Assembly: GCA_903935205.1 (NCBI GenBank) | Contig: CAIZQU010000003.1 | Location: forward strand, 1-64,000 | Length of the DNA: 64,000 nt | Direction of reading: 5' to 3' | Source of the DNA: an uncultured cyanobacterium | GTDB lineage: Bacteria > Cyanobacteriota > Cyanobacteriia > PCC-6307 > Cyanobiaceae | Shown: positions 1,599 to 22,489 of the stretch, one piece after another | Position numbering within the stretch: position 1 is the stretch's first letter | Layout of the letters: each line of letters opens with the position of its first letter | Position numbers and translations under genes: made by a program | Notes under the pieces: model-generated | The model's input: the letters and a program-made list of their open reading frames with translations, nothing else | What the model was told of the DNA's origin: nothing | Database searches by the model: none

Positions 1599-2474
1599 GG
1601 GCCTTATTTCTATCTGATGCAGGCCGCTGTCACCAGAGTGCCGATGAAGGCTTTACCATGCTGCAGGCTTGGTCCACTCGGCATCCTGATTGACGTTGGG
1701 AGCGTCTGCGACAATGAAAGCTGTGACGGTATTCCTGCAACTGGTCTGCAAGCCCAATGTATTGGCAAACCTCCGCAAGTCAATCCTCGATCCTATGGCC
1801 CACGACAGCGCGCCACTGTGAACGGATGCCTGATTGAGCTGGGAGAACGATGGCGATGCCATGACGAACCCAAGCGATCCGATCGAGGTGGAAGCCATCG
1901 TTGTCTATCTGGCGACAGAAAAACTGGTCCAGCCGCTGTGCGAGCCGGCCATGACGCCATGGGGTGCGGAGGGGCAGGTTTTCTGAGGCCAAGGGTTCTG
2001 GAGATGGCGGTTCAGATCCCTCAGGATGTGAAGGCGATGCGGCGGCCATCAGCGCCAGGTGAGGTCGGTGGCGGATCGCCTGCGAGCTGGGCTGCTCGCC
2101 TGAGTTACACCACTCCATGGGACGCTGCTGAGTGGGGTTGTGTGGGTATCTGCCGCAACTCGGTTCTTGATCGCCAGCGGGAGTGGCTGCGGCAGCGTTT
2201 GCTGGCCAACCTCGGCAAAGCCTGTCTCCCATCCCCCCACCCAGAGCCGTCGGGGCCGCTGGATCGTCGCCGAACACCCTGGGCTTCCCAGCGAACAATC
2301 GATCAGGACCGCCCAGATCGACTGCCGCTAGCGGCTGAGCCACCATCTAACAACCGGCTCGGGCGCCGGAGAGCCGAGAGAGGGCCGCCCTTCAGCAATC
2401 TCATTCATCTCGCCAAAGACTTTTCAATAGTCTCATAAAAGGTCTCAGGCAGGATGAATGACCAGGTCGATCAC

Positions 2475-2681
2475 CTCCCCGGCACCGCTGATCCCAACGG
2501 CGCCGAACACCTCGACCCTGCTCCGCGAAACCCTTTGCCAACCCGAGCGGCATCGCCCCCCTTGCCGCCCCATGAAGCCCCCCTCCACTGGACCATCAGC
2601 CAGGGACGCCCTCGCCCAATCCAACGAACAAAGACGAGGAGCCAGGGGCACCCCCTCAAAAGACTGCATGGAGCAGAACGC
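2475..2681 (+). repeat. Diverged direct repeat, copy A
   Basis: Starts at CTCCCCGGCACCGCTGATCC and runs about 207 bases. It aligns to copy B (2899-3109), 424 bases downstream, at roughly three-quarters identity by eye. Two single-base length differences between the copies shift the reading frame, so the repeat was not maintained as protein-coding sequence. Each copy is preceded by GTCTCA sites. Confidence 0.7.
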
Positions 2682-2854
2682 ATGCAGCACCCCATGCCCA
2701 GCAGCGGTCTCACCCCCCTCCCCGCCGTGATGCCCAGCCATCGCCAGCGAGACCCATTGCGAGACCAGAAACGGGACACATCTGCGACAGGCAGTACCCT
2801 CCGAACCTGTTCGGTTCACCGCCGCCGCCCCCCTTTCTTCCTTTGTTCCATGGG

Positions 2855-2869
2855 CTGGTCTCAGACCAG
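2855..2869. repeat. Perfect 15-base palindrome at a GTCTCA site
   Basis: CTGGTCT-C-AGACCAG is a perfect inverted repeat around one central base. It marks the boundary just before copy B of the duplicated module. The symmetry would suit a dimeric DNA-binding protein or a short hairpin. Confidence 0.55.
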
Positions 2870-2898
2870 ACGACTGATCACCTGATCACCGCGAACAT

Positions 2899-3109
2899 CT
2901 CCCCGGCACCGCTGATCCCAACGTCGCCGAACGCTGCGACCCTGCCCCGCGAAAGCCTCGGCCAACCCGAGCGGCATCGATCCCCCGCGCTGCCCCATGG
3001 GGCCCACCCTCCACTGGAGCGTCAGCCAAGGAAAGTCCCCGCCCACTCCAACGACCAAGGGCCAGGGCCAGCGGCGCCCCCTCCATGGACAGCATGGGGG
3101 GCAGAAAGC
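2899..3109 (+). repeat. Diverged direct repeat, copy B
   Basis: Second copy of the module at 2475-2681, about 211 bases long. Shared blocks include CGGCACCGCTGATCCCAACG, GCCAACCCGAGCGGCATCG and CCTCCACTGGA. It lies between the palindromic GTCTCA site at 2855-2869 and the triple TGAGAC cluster at 3164-3205. No coding function is evident on either strand. Confidence 0.7.
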
Positions 3110-3163
3110 CTGAAGCGACCACGCTCCCGTTAGCCGCCCCGACGAGACATCATCTATCGCCTA

Positions 3164-3205
3164 TGAGACCCAGCCCGAGACTATTTATGAGACACAGATG
3201 AGACC
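3164..3205 (+). repeat. Cluster of three same-orientation TGAGAC sites
   Basis: TGAGAC occurs at 3164, 3188 and 3199, with a near-match CGAGAC at 3176, all in the same orientation within 42 bases. The spacing is about 11-12 bases, close to one helical turn, so all sites would face the same side of the DNA. Confidence 0.5.
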
Positions 3206-3956
3206 ATCAACACCCTCAGATTTGCGCGATTTCGGCTGCGCGCCCCTCGGTTCCCCATCCCTGACCAGGTCTCTGCACACAGCGCGGCAAGCGAACCGGA
3301 TATCCCGGTCGCCAAGGGCCATTTCTGCGATTTTTGCTCTCGGAAAACCCTTGGCACGACTTGATTTGCTAGATCGGCGTACCTGTGTCAAACACAGGTA
3401 CGCGGCAGATCGACCCGGTTTGCCATCGGATCGCGGCCTTGATGGATCCCTTCTGCCGCTGAACAATGCCGCAGCAACCGAAAACGATCGAAACCCAGCC
3501 CCCCACCATCGGGACCCCAGCTCGCTGGCGGAACCGACCCAGCGCCAGGCCTGCCCCCCTCGCAGCGCCCGGGACAACCACGACCCTGGATGCGCATCAG
3601 TCCCAATCCAGACCCGAGACGGGTCCCAGAGCGTGTATTAGATGAGACAGCATGGATGTGTTGCGCCATCCGCATCGAGCTTCAGCCCCCCGTGCTGCCA
3701 CGGTGCCAACACCCGAGGCAACGCGACGCCGCCGCGCCTCTCGCTGCAGCCATGCCTCATCAGCCGTCAAGACAGGCAGGGCGCGCCTATCGCTGCAGCG
3801 CATCCTTCTCGTCGGATCGCCCTGCAGCGCTGCTGGTGACCAGGGCGCCAGCTCAGGAAACGATCCGGAACCTCAGAGAGCCGAACCCCGCTGATGAACA
3901 AGCAGGGCAGTCAGAACCAACGAATCAGACAACGGCAACAAACCAATGACCCAGTA

Positions 3957-3985
3957 GTCTCAGTTGAGACCAAAAGCAGGTCTCA
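3957..3985. repeat. Three alternating GTCTCA/TGAGAC sites
   Basis: GTCTCA (3957-3962) and TGAGAC (3965-3970) form a near-palindrome with a 2-base spacer. TGAGACC (3965-3971) and GGTCTCA (3979-3985) form a second inverted pair with a 7-base loop. The centre can therefore pair with either side, allowing two alternative hairpins. Confidence 0.55.
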
Positions 3986-4309
3986 TAGCGCGTCCCGGAC
4001 GGGAACTTCGAGCCACTCCGGGGCCCGTCCCGCTCCGGCCATTCCCAGGCGGCGCCTCCGCAGCCGACGCTCAGCGGGCGAGCCGTTCGCGGGACAGCCA
4101 ATCGCCCCGCATCCTGAGGGTTGTCCGAGCGTGCCTCGAGCAACCAGGGCCCTGGCGGGCTCGCTGGTGTTGGCAGGCACGCCTCGCCCGGCCCAGGGCA
4201 AGGGTTGAATGGTGGTTCCGTCCATCACCCGCTGCTCAAACCATCGGCCAGCCAGTCAAAGACGCCGTTCAGGCACGGGCACAACCCTGGCCACAATGTC
4301 TCTGCTATT

Positions 4310-4340
4310 GAACCTGAGACTCACCTCGGGTCTCAGGTTC
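4310..4340. repeat. Perfect 11-bp inverted repeat
   Basis: GAACCTGAGAC (4310-4320) and GTCTCAGGTTC (4330-4340) are exact reverse complements around a 9-base loop. There is no T-run on either side, so it is not a standard intrinsic terminator. It lies about 120 bases beyond the 3' end of apcD and could be the end of that transcript, or another copy of the repeat family. Confidence 0.65.
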
Positions 4341-4460
4341 GGACCAGACCCAGACGATCCTGGCGAATGGTGAGACAAGCCGATGGCCTGGCGTGACAGC
4401 ACAAAAACGCTGGGAGTCACCCCAGAAGCGGAGATGGACGAAGCCTCTTGGGCGACGGAT

Positions 4461-5062: not shown

Positions 5063-6433
5063 ATGACAGCGATGGTGACGGCAGGCGGCGCCGAGATCGC
5101 GATCGCGGATCTCACCCTGCAAGGGGAAGGGATCGGCCGGTTGGAGGATGGCTCGGTGGTCTTCGTGCCCGGGGCCCTGCCCGGCGAGAGGGTGCGCATC
5201 CGCCTCAGGGAAAGGCGCCGCAACCTCTGGCGGGCTTCCCTGGTGGCCGTCCTGGAGCCATCTCCCCAGCGGCGGCGCCCCCCCTGCATCCTCGCCGACC
5301 ACTGCGGCGGCTGCAGCCTCCAACCCCTGGAGGACCAGGCCCAGGCCGACTGGAAGGAGGCCCAGCTGCGCCAGACGATCCAGCGGGTGGGCCACCTGCA
5401 GGCCCCCCTGAGGCCGATCCTGCGCAGCCCCCAGCCCCTCGGCTACCGCAACCGAGCCGTGATCCCCCTCGAGCGCACCGCCGATGGGGTCCTGCGGGCG
5501 GGGTTCTACCGGCGCGGTTCCCATCGCATCGTCAATCTCAACCGCTGCCCGGTGCTCGATCCCCGCATCGATGCCCTGATCGCCCCCCTCAAGGACGATC
5601 TGGAAGCCGCTCCCTGGCCGGTGGACCGACACGGGGGCGGCGGCCTGCGGCACCTGGCCTTGCGCGTCGGCGCCCGCAGCGGCGAGATCCTGATCACCCT
5701 GGTGGCCCGCAGCGCCGAACAGCTGCCCGGCCTGGAAGAGCTCGCCGCCTCCTGGATGGAGCGCTGGCCGACGCTGGTGGGCGTGGGCCTGAACCTCCAG
5801 CCCCATCCGGACAACCGCCTGTTCGGAGACCGCACCCTGACCATTCAGGGCCGCGACTGGCTCAGGGAGGGTTTCGCCGGGCTGGAGTACCGGATCGGCG
5901 CCACCAGCTTCTTCCAGGTCAACACCGCCCAGGCGGAGGCGGTGGTGCCGCTGCTGCTGGAGGCCCTGGACCCCGACCCCGGTCACCTGATCGACGCCTA
6001 CTGCGGCATCGGCACCTACTCCCTGCCCCTGGCCCAGGCTGGCTGGCGGGTGGATGGGATCGAGGAGCAGCCCCTGGCCGTGGATCTGGCCCGCACCAAT
6101 GCCGACGCCAATGGTCTGGCGGCGTTGACGCGCTTCCAGACCGACGACGTGGGCGCCGTGCTGGCGGAGCGCCTCGGCAACGATCGGATCGGGGCCCTGC
6201 TGCTCGATCCGCCCCGCAAGGGCCTGGCGGCGGCAGCCCTTGCGGCGATCGTGGCGGCGGGACCGGCCCAGCTGCTTTACCTCAGCTGTGATCCGGCCAC
6301 CCTGGCCAGGGATCTGGCCCAGCTCTGCGGCGAGGGACCCTACCGAGCCGAATGGCTGCAACCGATCGATTTCTTCCCCAACACCAGCCACGTCGAATGC
6401 CTGGCGGTGCTGCGGCGGCGGCAGCTGGCCTGA
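5063..6433 (+). CDS. rlmD: 23S rRNA (uracil-5-)-methyltransferase, RumA/RlmD family
   Basis: Predicted SAM-dependent m5U methyltransferase of large-subunit rRNA, 456 residues. Order of parts: an N-terminal TRAM RNA-binding domain (~10-65, with GEGIGRLEDG and FVPGALPGERV), iron-sulfur cluster cysteines in PPC...DHCGGCSLQ (~75-90) with a further Cys in NRCPVLDP (~165), a Rossmann SAM domain (~300-340, DAYCGIGTYSLPLA), DPPRKGL, and the catalytic Cys in LYLSCDP near residue 415. Whether the target is the RlmD or RlmC position cannot be told from sequence; cyanobacteria usually have one or two paralogues. ATG at 5063 or the ATG three codons later are both possible starts. Confidence 0.85.
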   Translation: MTAMVTAGGAEIAIADLTLQGEGIGRLEDGSVVFVPGALPGERVRIRLRERRRNLWRASLVAVLEPSPQRRRPPCILADHCGGCSLQPLEDQAQADWKEAQLRQTIQRVGHLQAPLRPILRSPQPLGYRNRAVIPLERTADGVLRAGFYRRGSHRIVNLNRCPVLDPRIDALIAPLKDDLEAAPWPVDRHGGGGLRHLALRVGARSGEILITLVARSAEQLPGLEELAASWMERWPTLVGVGLNLQPHPDNRLFGDRTLTIQGRDWLREGFAGLEYRIGATSFFQVNTAQAEAVVPLLLEALDPDPGHLIDAYCGIGTYSLPLAQAGWRVDGIEEQPLAVDLARTNADANGLAALTRFQTDDVGAVLAERLGNDRIGALLLDPPRKGLAAAALAAIVAAGPAQLLYLSCDPATLARDLAQLCGEGPYRAEWLQPIDFFPNTSHVECLAVLRRRQLA

Positions 6434-22114: not shown

Positions 22115-22489
22115 TCAGCGCATCTCAATGGCGCTGAGCCGATCTCGAAAACTGCCGGAGCCCGGATCAGCCTCGGCAGCGGATGCGTCGAATCGATCGG
22201 CCCAGGGAGCGCTTCCAAGGCTGCCAGGGGCCTGGGTCAAGGCGTCAGGGTTCTGGACCACGACCACCTCGGCGCCGCCGACGGGGGATCGGCGGCTGCG
22301 GCTGGGACCAGCCTGGGCGCGGGCCTCGATGGCGCGGGTGAGACTGCGGCTGCGATTGGCGGCACCAACGGTCTCACCATCCTTGGGGCGGATCAGGGGG
22401 TTGCCCTTCAGATCGGACCGCACCTGATTGAGGAGCCGGAAATGGCCGGTGGTGTTGTATTTGCGGAGAACGGTGGGATCCCAGGGCAT
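22115..22489 (-). CDS. Conserved picocyanobacterial hypothetical protein
   Basis: A 124-residue protein. The first ~40 residues (MPWDPTVLRKYNTTGHFRLLNQVRSDLK...) look like a folded, conserved N-terminal segment; the remainder is Arg/Ser/Ala-rich and probably disordered, with VVVVQNPDAL in the middle. There is no signal peptide or membrane segment. It lies alone between tRNA-Met and the peroxiredoxin gene, on the opposite strand. I recognise the N-terminal type from other marine Synechococcus genomes but know no function. Confidence 0.6.
   Translation of the reverse strand: MPWDPTVLRKYNTTGHFRLLNQVRSDLKGNPLIRPKDGETVGAANRSRSLTRAIEARAQAGPSRSRRSPVGGAEVVVVQNPDALTQAPGSLGSAPWADRFDASAAEADPGSGSFRDRLSAIEMR

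Follow-up and report, generated by a model that had tools for sequence, protein, structure and literature searches.

Comparison with described systems

Chromosomes with an E. coli-type XerCD/FtsK dif system usually carry one palindromic site at the terminus and encode an Xer-like tyrosine recombinase. The same applies to the locus described here, which lies in a stretch of 64,000 nucleotides from an uncultured cyanobacterium of the Cyanobiaceae (contig CAIZQU010000003.1, positions 1 to 64,000; hereafter the window) and which consists of a palindrome, a candidate dif-like core, with copies of the hexamer TGAGAC (GTCTCA on the opposite strand) on either side. Unlike E. coli dif with its 11-6-11 layout, the palindrome has near-invariant 9-bp arms and a 9-bp centre, it is surrounded by arrays of accessory words, and no FtsK was detected above the cut-off in the 12 genomes searched. 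The sequence of E. coli dif, considered without alignment, also differs from the palindrome.

The archaeal XerA/dif system is similar with regard to the enzyme, the nearest solved relatives of the recombinase being XerA proteins (4a8e, 5hxy), and with regard to FtsK, which archaea lack to our knowledge. It differs in that the recombinase of the picocyanobacteria possesses an extra N-terminal domain and in that the palindrome is accompanied by accessory arrays and by a convergent neighbour gene encoding a protein, referred to as RHH-J, that has a ribbon-helix-helix (PF01402) at its N-terminus and a DnaJ domain (PF00226) at its C-terminus. We know of neither such arrays nor such a neighbour at archaeal dif sites.

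At the plasmid sites cer and psi, accessory sequences act as a topological filter for Xer recombination with the aid of the accessory proteins ArgR, PepA and ArcA. The locus resembles them in combining a candidate Xer core with putative accessory protein sites at set distances, and differs in being chromosomal and in having sites on both sides over about 1.5 kb. Enterobacterial MatP belongs to the ribbon-helix-helix class and, together with matS, offers a parallel in which dyad sites and a protein of this class are linked to the terminus. However, matS sites are spread over hundreds of kb, whereas the hexamers of the locus are concentrated within about 800 bp to 1 kb of the core; furthermore, the dyad is a different one and the protein of the locus has a J-domain.

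According to the consulted parts of PMC8138268, cyanobacterial recombinases of the “Cyan” subgroup of simple tyrosine recombinases have been proposed to replace Xer, and Oscillatoriophycideae lack Xer and carry this subgroup. A possible difference from the recombinase considered here is that the subgroup, which was compared by its description only, is classed there among recombinases usually lacking an arm-binding domain. In the excerpts of two papers dif was predicted in none of five cyanobacteria (PMC3025954) and cyanobacteria were without predicted dif (PMC6416890), while the corresponding part of PMC13342612 treats dif and FtsK on replicons of other bacteria. A prior report of the palindrome or of a terminus site of this kind was not found in the consulted parts of the open-licence literature, and among the matches listed for RHH/J-domain proteins and MatP in cyanobacteria no open-licence paper appeared to be relevant.

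A conserved palindrome at the replication terminus

The palindrome of the window, GCGTACCTG-TGTCAAACA-CAGGTACGC (3377..3403), is composed of 9-bp arms around a 9-bp centre and follows the consensus GCGTAYCTG-N9-CAGRTACGC, which is mostly extended by further flanking T and A. This element was absent from the initial annotation of the window. For comparison, 20 of the 41 genus-mates were fetched, each at its best match to the phycobilisome protein gene of the window (PF00502; 4461..5039, minus strand, true start probably further in), which we take to be apcD and for which some match was detected in all 42 genomes of the genus, the own genome included. As the loci were chosen by that gene, it borders the locus in all 20 of them. 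The palindrome is located inside each of the resulting 21 intergenic regions, with one changed arm base in L083 and L095.

At a tolerance of up to two mismatches the genome of the window contains one copy of the palindrome. In the family it was detected at the same tolerance in 185 of 300 genomes (136 of the 197 good ones) representing 39 of 59 genera, while a reversed control pattern matched in about two dozen of the 300. Counted from the listing, exactly one copy is present in 168 of the 185 positive genomes and two or three in the other 17, which corresponds to the single copy expected of a dif site.

The arms were compared in 83 sites, the selection of which by a pattern fixing most arm bases favours high values in the following counts: positions 5-7, 11 and 13 are complementary in 83/83 sites, positions 9-10 in 82, position 12 in 78, position 8 in 68 and position 14 in 60. 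Position 8 covaries between CG, TA and AT. The central 9 bp are complementary in at most 44 of the 83. The total length is 27-31 bp and odd, compared with the dif form of about 11-bp arms and a centre of 6-8 bp.

The position of the palindrome at the replication terminus is well supported. Its distance from dnaN amounts to 0.385-0.489 of the circle in all eight single-contig genomes with a known palindrome that were examined, and the oriC of Synechococcus elongatus is located near dnaN according to the consulted part of PMC7198777. In G115 (palindrome at 354 kb, dnaN at 1,326 kb) the GC and TA skew at third codon positions, positive at first, becomes negative between about 290 and 376 kb and abruptly turns positive again between 1,299 and 1,341 kb; a single GC value in between, at 610 kb, strays to the positive side. 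Similarly, the third-position skew of G094 (palindrome at 316 kb) has opposite signs at 290-310 kb and at 318-338 kb; a single TA value, at 420 kb, is out of line.

Hexamer arrays around the palindrome

The initial annotation had reported 13 TGAGAC/GTCTCA sites in a gene-free tract of the window. The cluster is real, and recounting gives 14 exact copies in 2430-4376, starting at 2430, 2442, 2707, 2858, 3164, 3188, 3199, 3643, 3957, 3965, 3980, 4315, 4330 and 4371. The estimate of roughly one copy by chance agrees with 500 dinucleotide shuffles of the 1,947-bp tract, in which the hexamer occurs 0.91 times on average and four times at most. As the commonest 6-mer of any kind reaches a mean of 9.2 and a maximum of 20 in such shuffles, 14 or more being attained in rare ones, the count by itself is not decisive and is less remarkable than at first sight; the case rests on conservation. 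The window as a whole is not enriched (25 sites, 27.8 expected), and the own genome of 3.82 Mb contains 771 copies of the hexamer and 513 of the reversed word. The annotators had named an equal density elsewhere and a lack of conservation in sister strains as grounds for rejecting their observation, and it withstood both comparisons: stretches of 1,947 bp contain three copies at most, both in the remainder of the window and in 400 kb sampled from the own genome, and sister species have conserved the locus. Their description of the tract as gene-free is essentially right, the relatives being intergenic here, with the qualification that frames of more than 100 aa are listed in it. A CRISPR array or tandem repeat, which they had already discounted, was rejected as no repeat family with fixed repeats and spacers was detected.

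A nucleotide search with the tract revealed almost no DNA similarity in the relatives, although the hexamer is kept there: TGAGAC occurs in the matching intergenic region of all 20 fetched genus-mates, with 1 to 11 copies each. Over the 21 intergenic regions, window included, it is the top-scoring plain 6-mer, being present in every region with 107 copies in total compared with 18.4 expected from a Markov model, and it again scores highest against the own-genome sample (107 against 4.4). It also ranks first over 25 family loci (86 compared with 15.4 from the Markov model). The end of the L095 region (1453) was set too short, which leads to an undercount of its sites in these 6-mer and in the dyad tallies.

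A scan of public genomes for the palindrome yielded at least 116 stretches, of which 80 bear titles (50 picocyanobacteria, comprising Synechococcus, Cyanobium, Prochlorococcus, Vulcanococcus and similar, and 30 other bacteria) and 36 were analysed without titles. Within 800 bp of the palindrome TGAGAC was found in all 50 titled picocyanobacterial loci, with a mean of 3.74 copies (reversed word 0.50), some of these loci being contigs already contained among the family genomes, which means that the sample is not independent. Where the title names another bacterium (30 palindromes), the mean is 0.40. The untitled loci fall into 24 with the RHH-J gene, where the mean is 3.54 (reversed word 0.38) and 23 have at least one copy, and 12 without it, where the mean is 0.42 and the hexamer is present in two. 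One of the 30 others, L333, filed under Bifidobacterium breve, contains four TGAGAC and a full-length RHH-J match of 56% identity; it probably represents a misfiled or misbinned picocyanobacterial contig carrying the terminus locus.

The hexamer tends to form one half of a 14-bp dyad, GTCTCA-N2-TGAGAC, in which the partner matches in at least four of six bases at 34% of the 107 genus and 37% of the 185 family sites. Most other partner spacings account for a few per cent each; smaller maxima occur at N11 and N14 and, on the other side, at N9. The placement of the words relative to the palindrome was tallied in 78 non-redundant loci out of 106, each turned to the orientation set by its neighbour gene. 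Hardly any T[GA]AGAC falls between -60 and +180; the word is most frequent at about -300 to -100 and +200 to +260 and has become sparse by 800 bp. The window respects this gap, its nearest sites lying at -255 and +189. The four classes of side and orientation are evenly filled (132, 133, 128 and 128), and a KOPS-like polarity was rejected on account of these even orientations. A further word, TGGACA, is locked at +50 to +119 with 130 places (histogram sum), 98 of them forward, compared with 11 elsewhere between -300 and +329, and 66 of the 78 loci have at least one copy in +14 to +220. An A-rich word (GAAAAATCAC-like) was noticed by eye near the outer edge of the hexamer-free zone, at about +180 to +200, in L092, L095, L096 and L098; the window has an A-tract nearer in, at 3331-3341.

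In the window itself, the side on which relatives carry RHH-J contains two TGAGAC half-sites (2430..2447, minus strand), a single one (2707..2712, minus strand), one at 2858 within a short palindrome (2855..2869) and, as the inner edge of the arm, an array of three TGAGAC (3164, 3188 and 3199) and one CGAGAC (3176-3181) on the plus strand (3164..3204), located at +189 to +224 from the palindrome centre. The apcD side contains a half-site on the plus strand (3643..3648) at -255, a perfect dyad GTCTCA-GT-TGAGAC (3957-3970) followed 9 bp on by an inverted GTCTCA at 3980, a group (3957..3985) that displays both the N2 and the N9 spacing found across the relatives, and finally TGAGAC at 4315, an inverted GTCTCA at N9 (4330) and TGAGAC at 4371 (4315..4376). 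The short palindromes that had been annotated at 2855-2869, 3957-3985 and 4310-4340 are all present in the sequence. A direct duplication (2459..2985, plus strand), the copies of which (2459-2561 and 2883-2985) are 84% identical and 424 bp apart, doubled part of the left arm in the genome of the window.

The neighbouring RHH-J gene

Based on tblastn, an RHH-J match is located beside the palindrome in 20/20 genus, 5/5 single-contig, 28/30 family and 42/51 named loci (L333 counted), and the N-terminal part of the protein was matched in 20, 5, 20 (family pieces of only 3 kb) and 41 of these, respectively. No match was obtained at 29 chance palindromes. In six of the nine named loci missing RHH-J the palindrome lies within 500 bases of one end of the fetched piece. 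A domain scan of three proteins identified PF01402 in all three, above the cut-off in two, and PF00226 above the cut-off in one.

Recombinase and FtsK

One core family of Xer-like tyrosine recombinases could be aligned from 11 of 12 genomes, the twelfth (G108) giving another integrase frame, and this enzyme is presumably the cognate recombinase of the palindrome. In the genome of the window it is encoded at L293:2683-3996 between frames read by eye as ferrochelatase and corrinoid adenosyltransferase. A search of solved chains matched it to the archaeal XerA-like 4a8e alone (E 0.015), and Foldseek likewise ranks XerA first (E 4.8e-05) with a model of modest overall confidence (predicted template modelling score, pTM, 0.46).

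The first 80 residues are predicted to form a helix, three strands and a helix (block predicted local distance difference test, pLDDT, 80-96), which may suggest a fold resembling the arm-binding domains described in the consulted part of PMC8138268 as three strands and one helix. PF12167 was detected below the cut-off in 5 of 11 proteins (best 20.0 of 22 bits). Lambda Int (1z1g) was aligned to the recombinase over 2-357 with Z 8.8 and a root-mean-square deviation of 20.1 over 285 aligned residues. For the N-terminal domain alone there was no Foldseek match at E up to 0.001 and the best VIA-align score was Z 4.8; this null result of the modelled domain would neither support nor exclude an arm-binding fold.

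FtsK_SpoIIIE (PF01580) was found above the cut-off in none of 12 genomes, two of which (G259, G080) gave weak partial matches below it. The same search gave a signal in 10 of 14 control genomes, eight of them over the cut-off; Synechococcus elongatus was not among the 10. Since FtsK was sought and not found, the locus was not assigned to the E. coli XerCD-FtsK/dif family. The absence does not extend to the whole phylum, since Halomicronema, another cyanobacterium, is reported with FtsK in the consulted part of PMC6416890.

Proposed function and alternative explanations

Taken together, we regard it as probable, with some reserve, that the locus is a dif-like terminus site with accessory protein-binding arrays, which would work without FtsK by means of a topological filter. 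The tract would accordingly represent the replication-terminus locus of the picocyanobacterial chromosome, where the usually single-copy palindrome would work like dif and a tyrosine recombinase would resolve chromosome dimers. The TGAGAC hexamers would be the half-sites of the dyad arrayed on both sides; a dimeric DNA-binding protein, for which the RHH-J protein usually encoded beside the palindrome is the best candidate, may coat the arrays and fold the terminus into a complex that permits recombination only between suitably arranged sites. We infer that this filter would take over the part of the FtsK translocase, which was not detected above the cut-off in the genomes searched. The initial suggestion of recombination sites or binding sites of a regulator thus pointed in the right direction, whereas its “small accessory locus” gives way to a family-wide chromosomal landmark at the replication terminus.

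A more specific variant, which we put forward tentatively and consider rather doubtful, is a lambda-integrase-like dimer-resolution machine that has turned into a housekeeping system in picocyanobacteria: the recombinase would act at the palindromic core and hold the position-locked TGGACA by an arm-binding N-terminal domain, RHH-J would coat the TGAGAC dyads on both sides, and the complex would replace the control by FtsK in restricting recombination to the terminus.

Several observations weigh against the dif-like interpretation. The palindrome was missing at up to two mismatches from 115 of the 300 family genomes, including all 23 of genus g40; the genera g40, g79, g31 and g62 contribute 2 positives among 59 genomes, compared with 183 of 241 outside them (own count). 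Two g40 genomes examined encode the recombinase though they lack the palindrome, which may have diverged there. The window has neither an RHH-J gene nor TGGACA at the locked place, the latter being also the case in 12 of the 78 loci. Its bases 1-2430, on the side where relatives carry RHH-J, comprise decayed insertion-sequence pieces and an open reading frame (354-1598) and depart from the 20 genus-mates fetched; as the contig starts at base 1 of the window, the RHH-J gene of this genome may sit on another contig. TGAGAC is not in excess in the 300 bp upstream of RHH-J (five sites in 57 loci; L159 and L168 dropped). The skew flips at the palindrome in two of four sampled genomes; in the other two, G023 and G020, it is so faint that it does not reveal where the terminus lies. 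An FtsK of very divergent sequence is possible, since the search was silent in 4 of the 14 control genomes. Finally, the swarm is not outstanding in every genome: the central 1.2 kb compared with the densest sampled background of the same length contains 8 and 3 TGAGAC in the genome of the window, 4 and 3 in G023, 5 and 4 in G094, 2 and 3 in G115 (7 and 6 with TAAGAC added) and 1 and 4 in G020. The swarm draws its strength from the pooled counts and from the way its copies are placed relative to the palindrome. Against its weakness in some genomes stand the supporting untitled loci. Autoregulation of RHH-J via TGAGAC was rejected for want of the upstream excess.

It seems unlikely, if still worth consideration, that the locus organises the terminus without recombination, with a MatP-like or fork-arrest protein, perhaps RHH-J, binding palindrome and arrays while the Xer-like recombinase acts elsewhere. 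The location at the terminus, the ribbon-helix-helix protein encoded next door and the dyads in arrays are all consistent with such an organiser, whereas the length of the palindrome, its nearly unchanging arms around a variable centre and its usual occurrence once per chromosome look more like a recombinase core than like one of many anchors, and the even orientation of the hexamers is unlike that of polar fork traps.

Very improbable is a structured non-coding RNA or a set of transcription terminators in which the palindrome forms an RNA hairpin. Convergent genes flank the region in the genus-mates and arm position 8 covaries, but a dyad occupied by a dimer would be expected to show the same covariation, and TGAGAC uses both strands evenly, the palindrome is linked to the terminus and usually present once, and the tract has no Rfam match, on the basis of which a known RNA family was rejected. 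A centromere-like or condensin-loading site (ParB/parS- or SMC-like) could account for the clustered dyads of a dimeric binder and for the usually single palindrome; such sites normally occur near the origin, whereas the locus lies opposite dnaN, and we give this explanation hardly any weight. Insertion-sequence debris with TGAGAC as remnants of transposon ends would agree with the decayed pieces beside the tract at 1911-2222 but is the most remote of the explanations, being contradicted by the conservation across genera, where the word surrounds the same palindrome family-wide at nearly no similarity of the tract DNA, and by a search of the own genome with the tract, in which the best match elsewhere has E 0.11 (40 of 79 candidates scored).

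Further features of the window

The decayed fragment at 1911..2222 (plus strand) shares 70% identity with a part of G028 that overlaps with the beginning of a transposase frame labelled by eye as IstA-like (IS21-type). For the open reading frame 354-1598, which had been annotated as a glycosyltransferase, no Pfam match was obtained even at E up to 10. Downstream of the phycobilisome gene a gene of the tRNA/rRNA uracil-5-methyltransferase type (PF05958, TRAM) was detected (5063..6433, plus strand), and frames judged by eye to be similar occur near the palindrome in other genomes. Distant from the tract, the window contains a cobalamin riboswitch (RF00174; 26821-26977, minus strand, 49.5 bits) and a further TGAGAC/GTCTCA inverted pair (22339-22376); with spacers of up to 30, the genome has three pairs of this kind in all. 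A search for plasmid relatives of the tract found none.

Significance for picocyanobacteria

The candidate dif is common to records of Synechococcus, Cyanobium and Prochlorococcus, which would open chromosome resolution to testing in phototrophs of very high abundance. Its setting is unusual in that no FtsK was detected and an accessory array is present in its place. Furthermore, the palindrome may serve as a sequence landmark for the terminus in genomes where the GC skew is too weak to reveal it.

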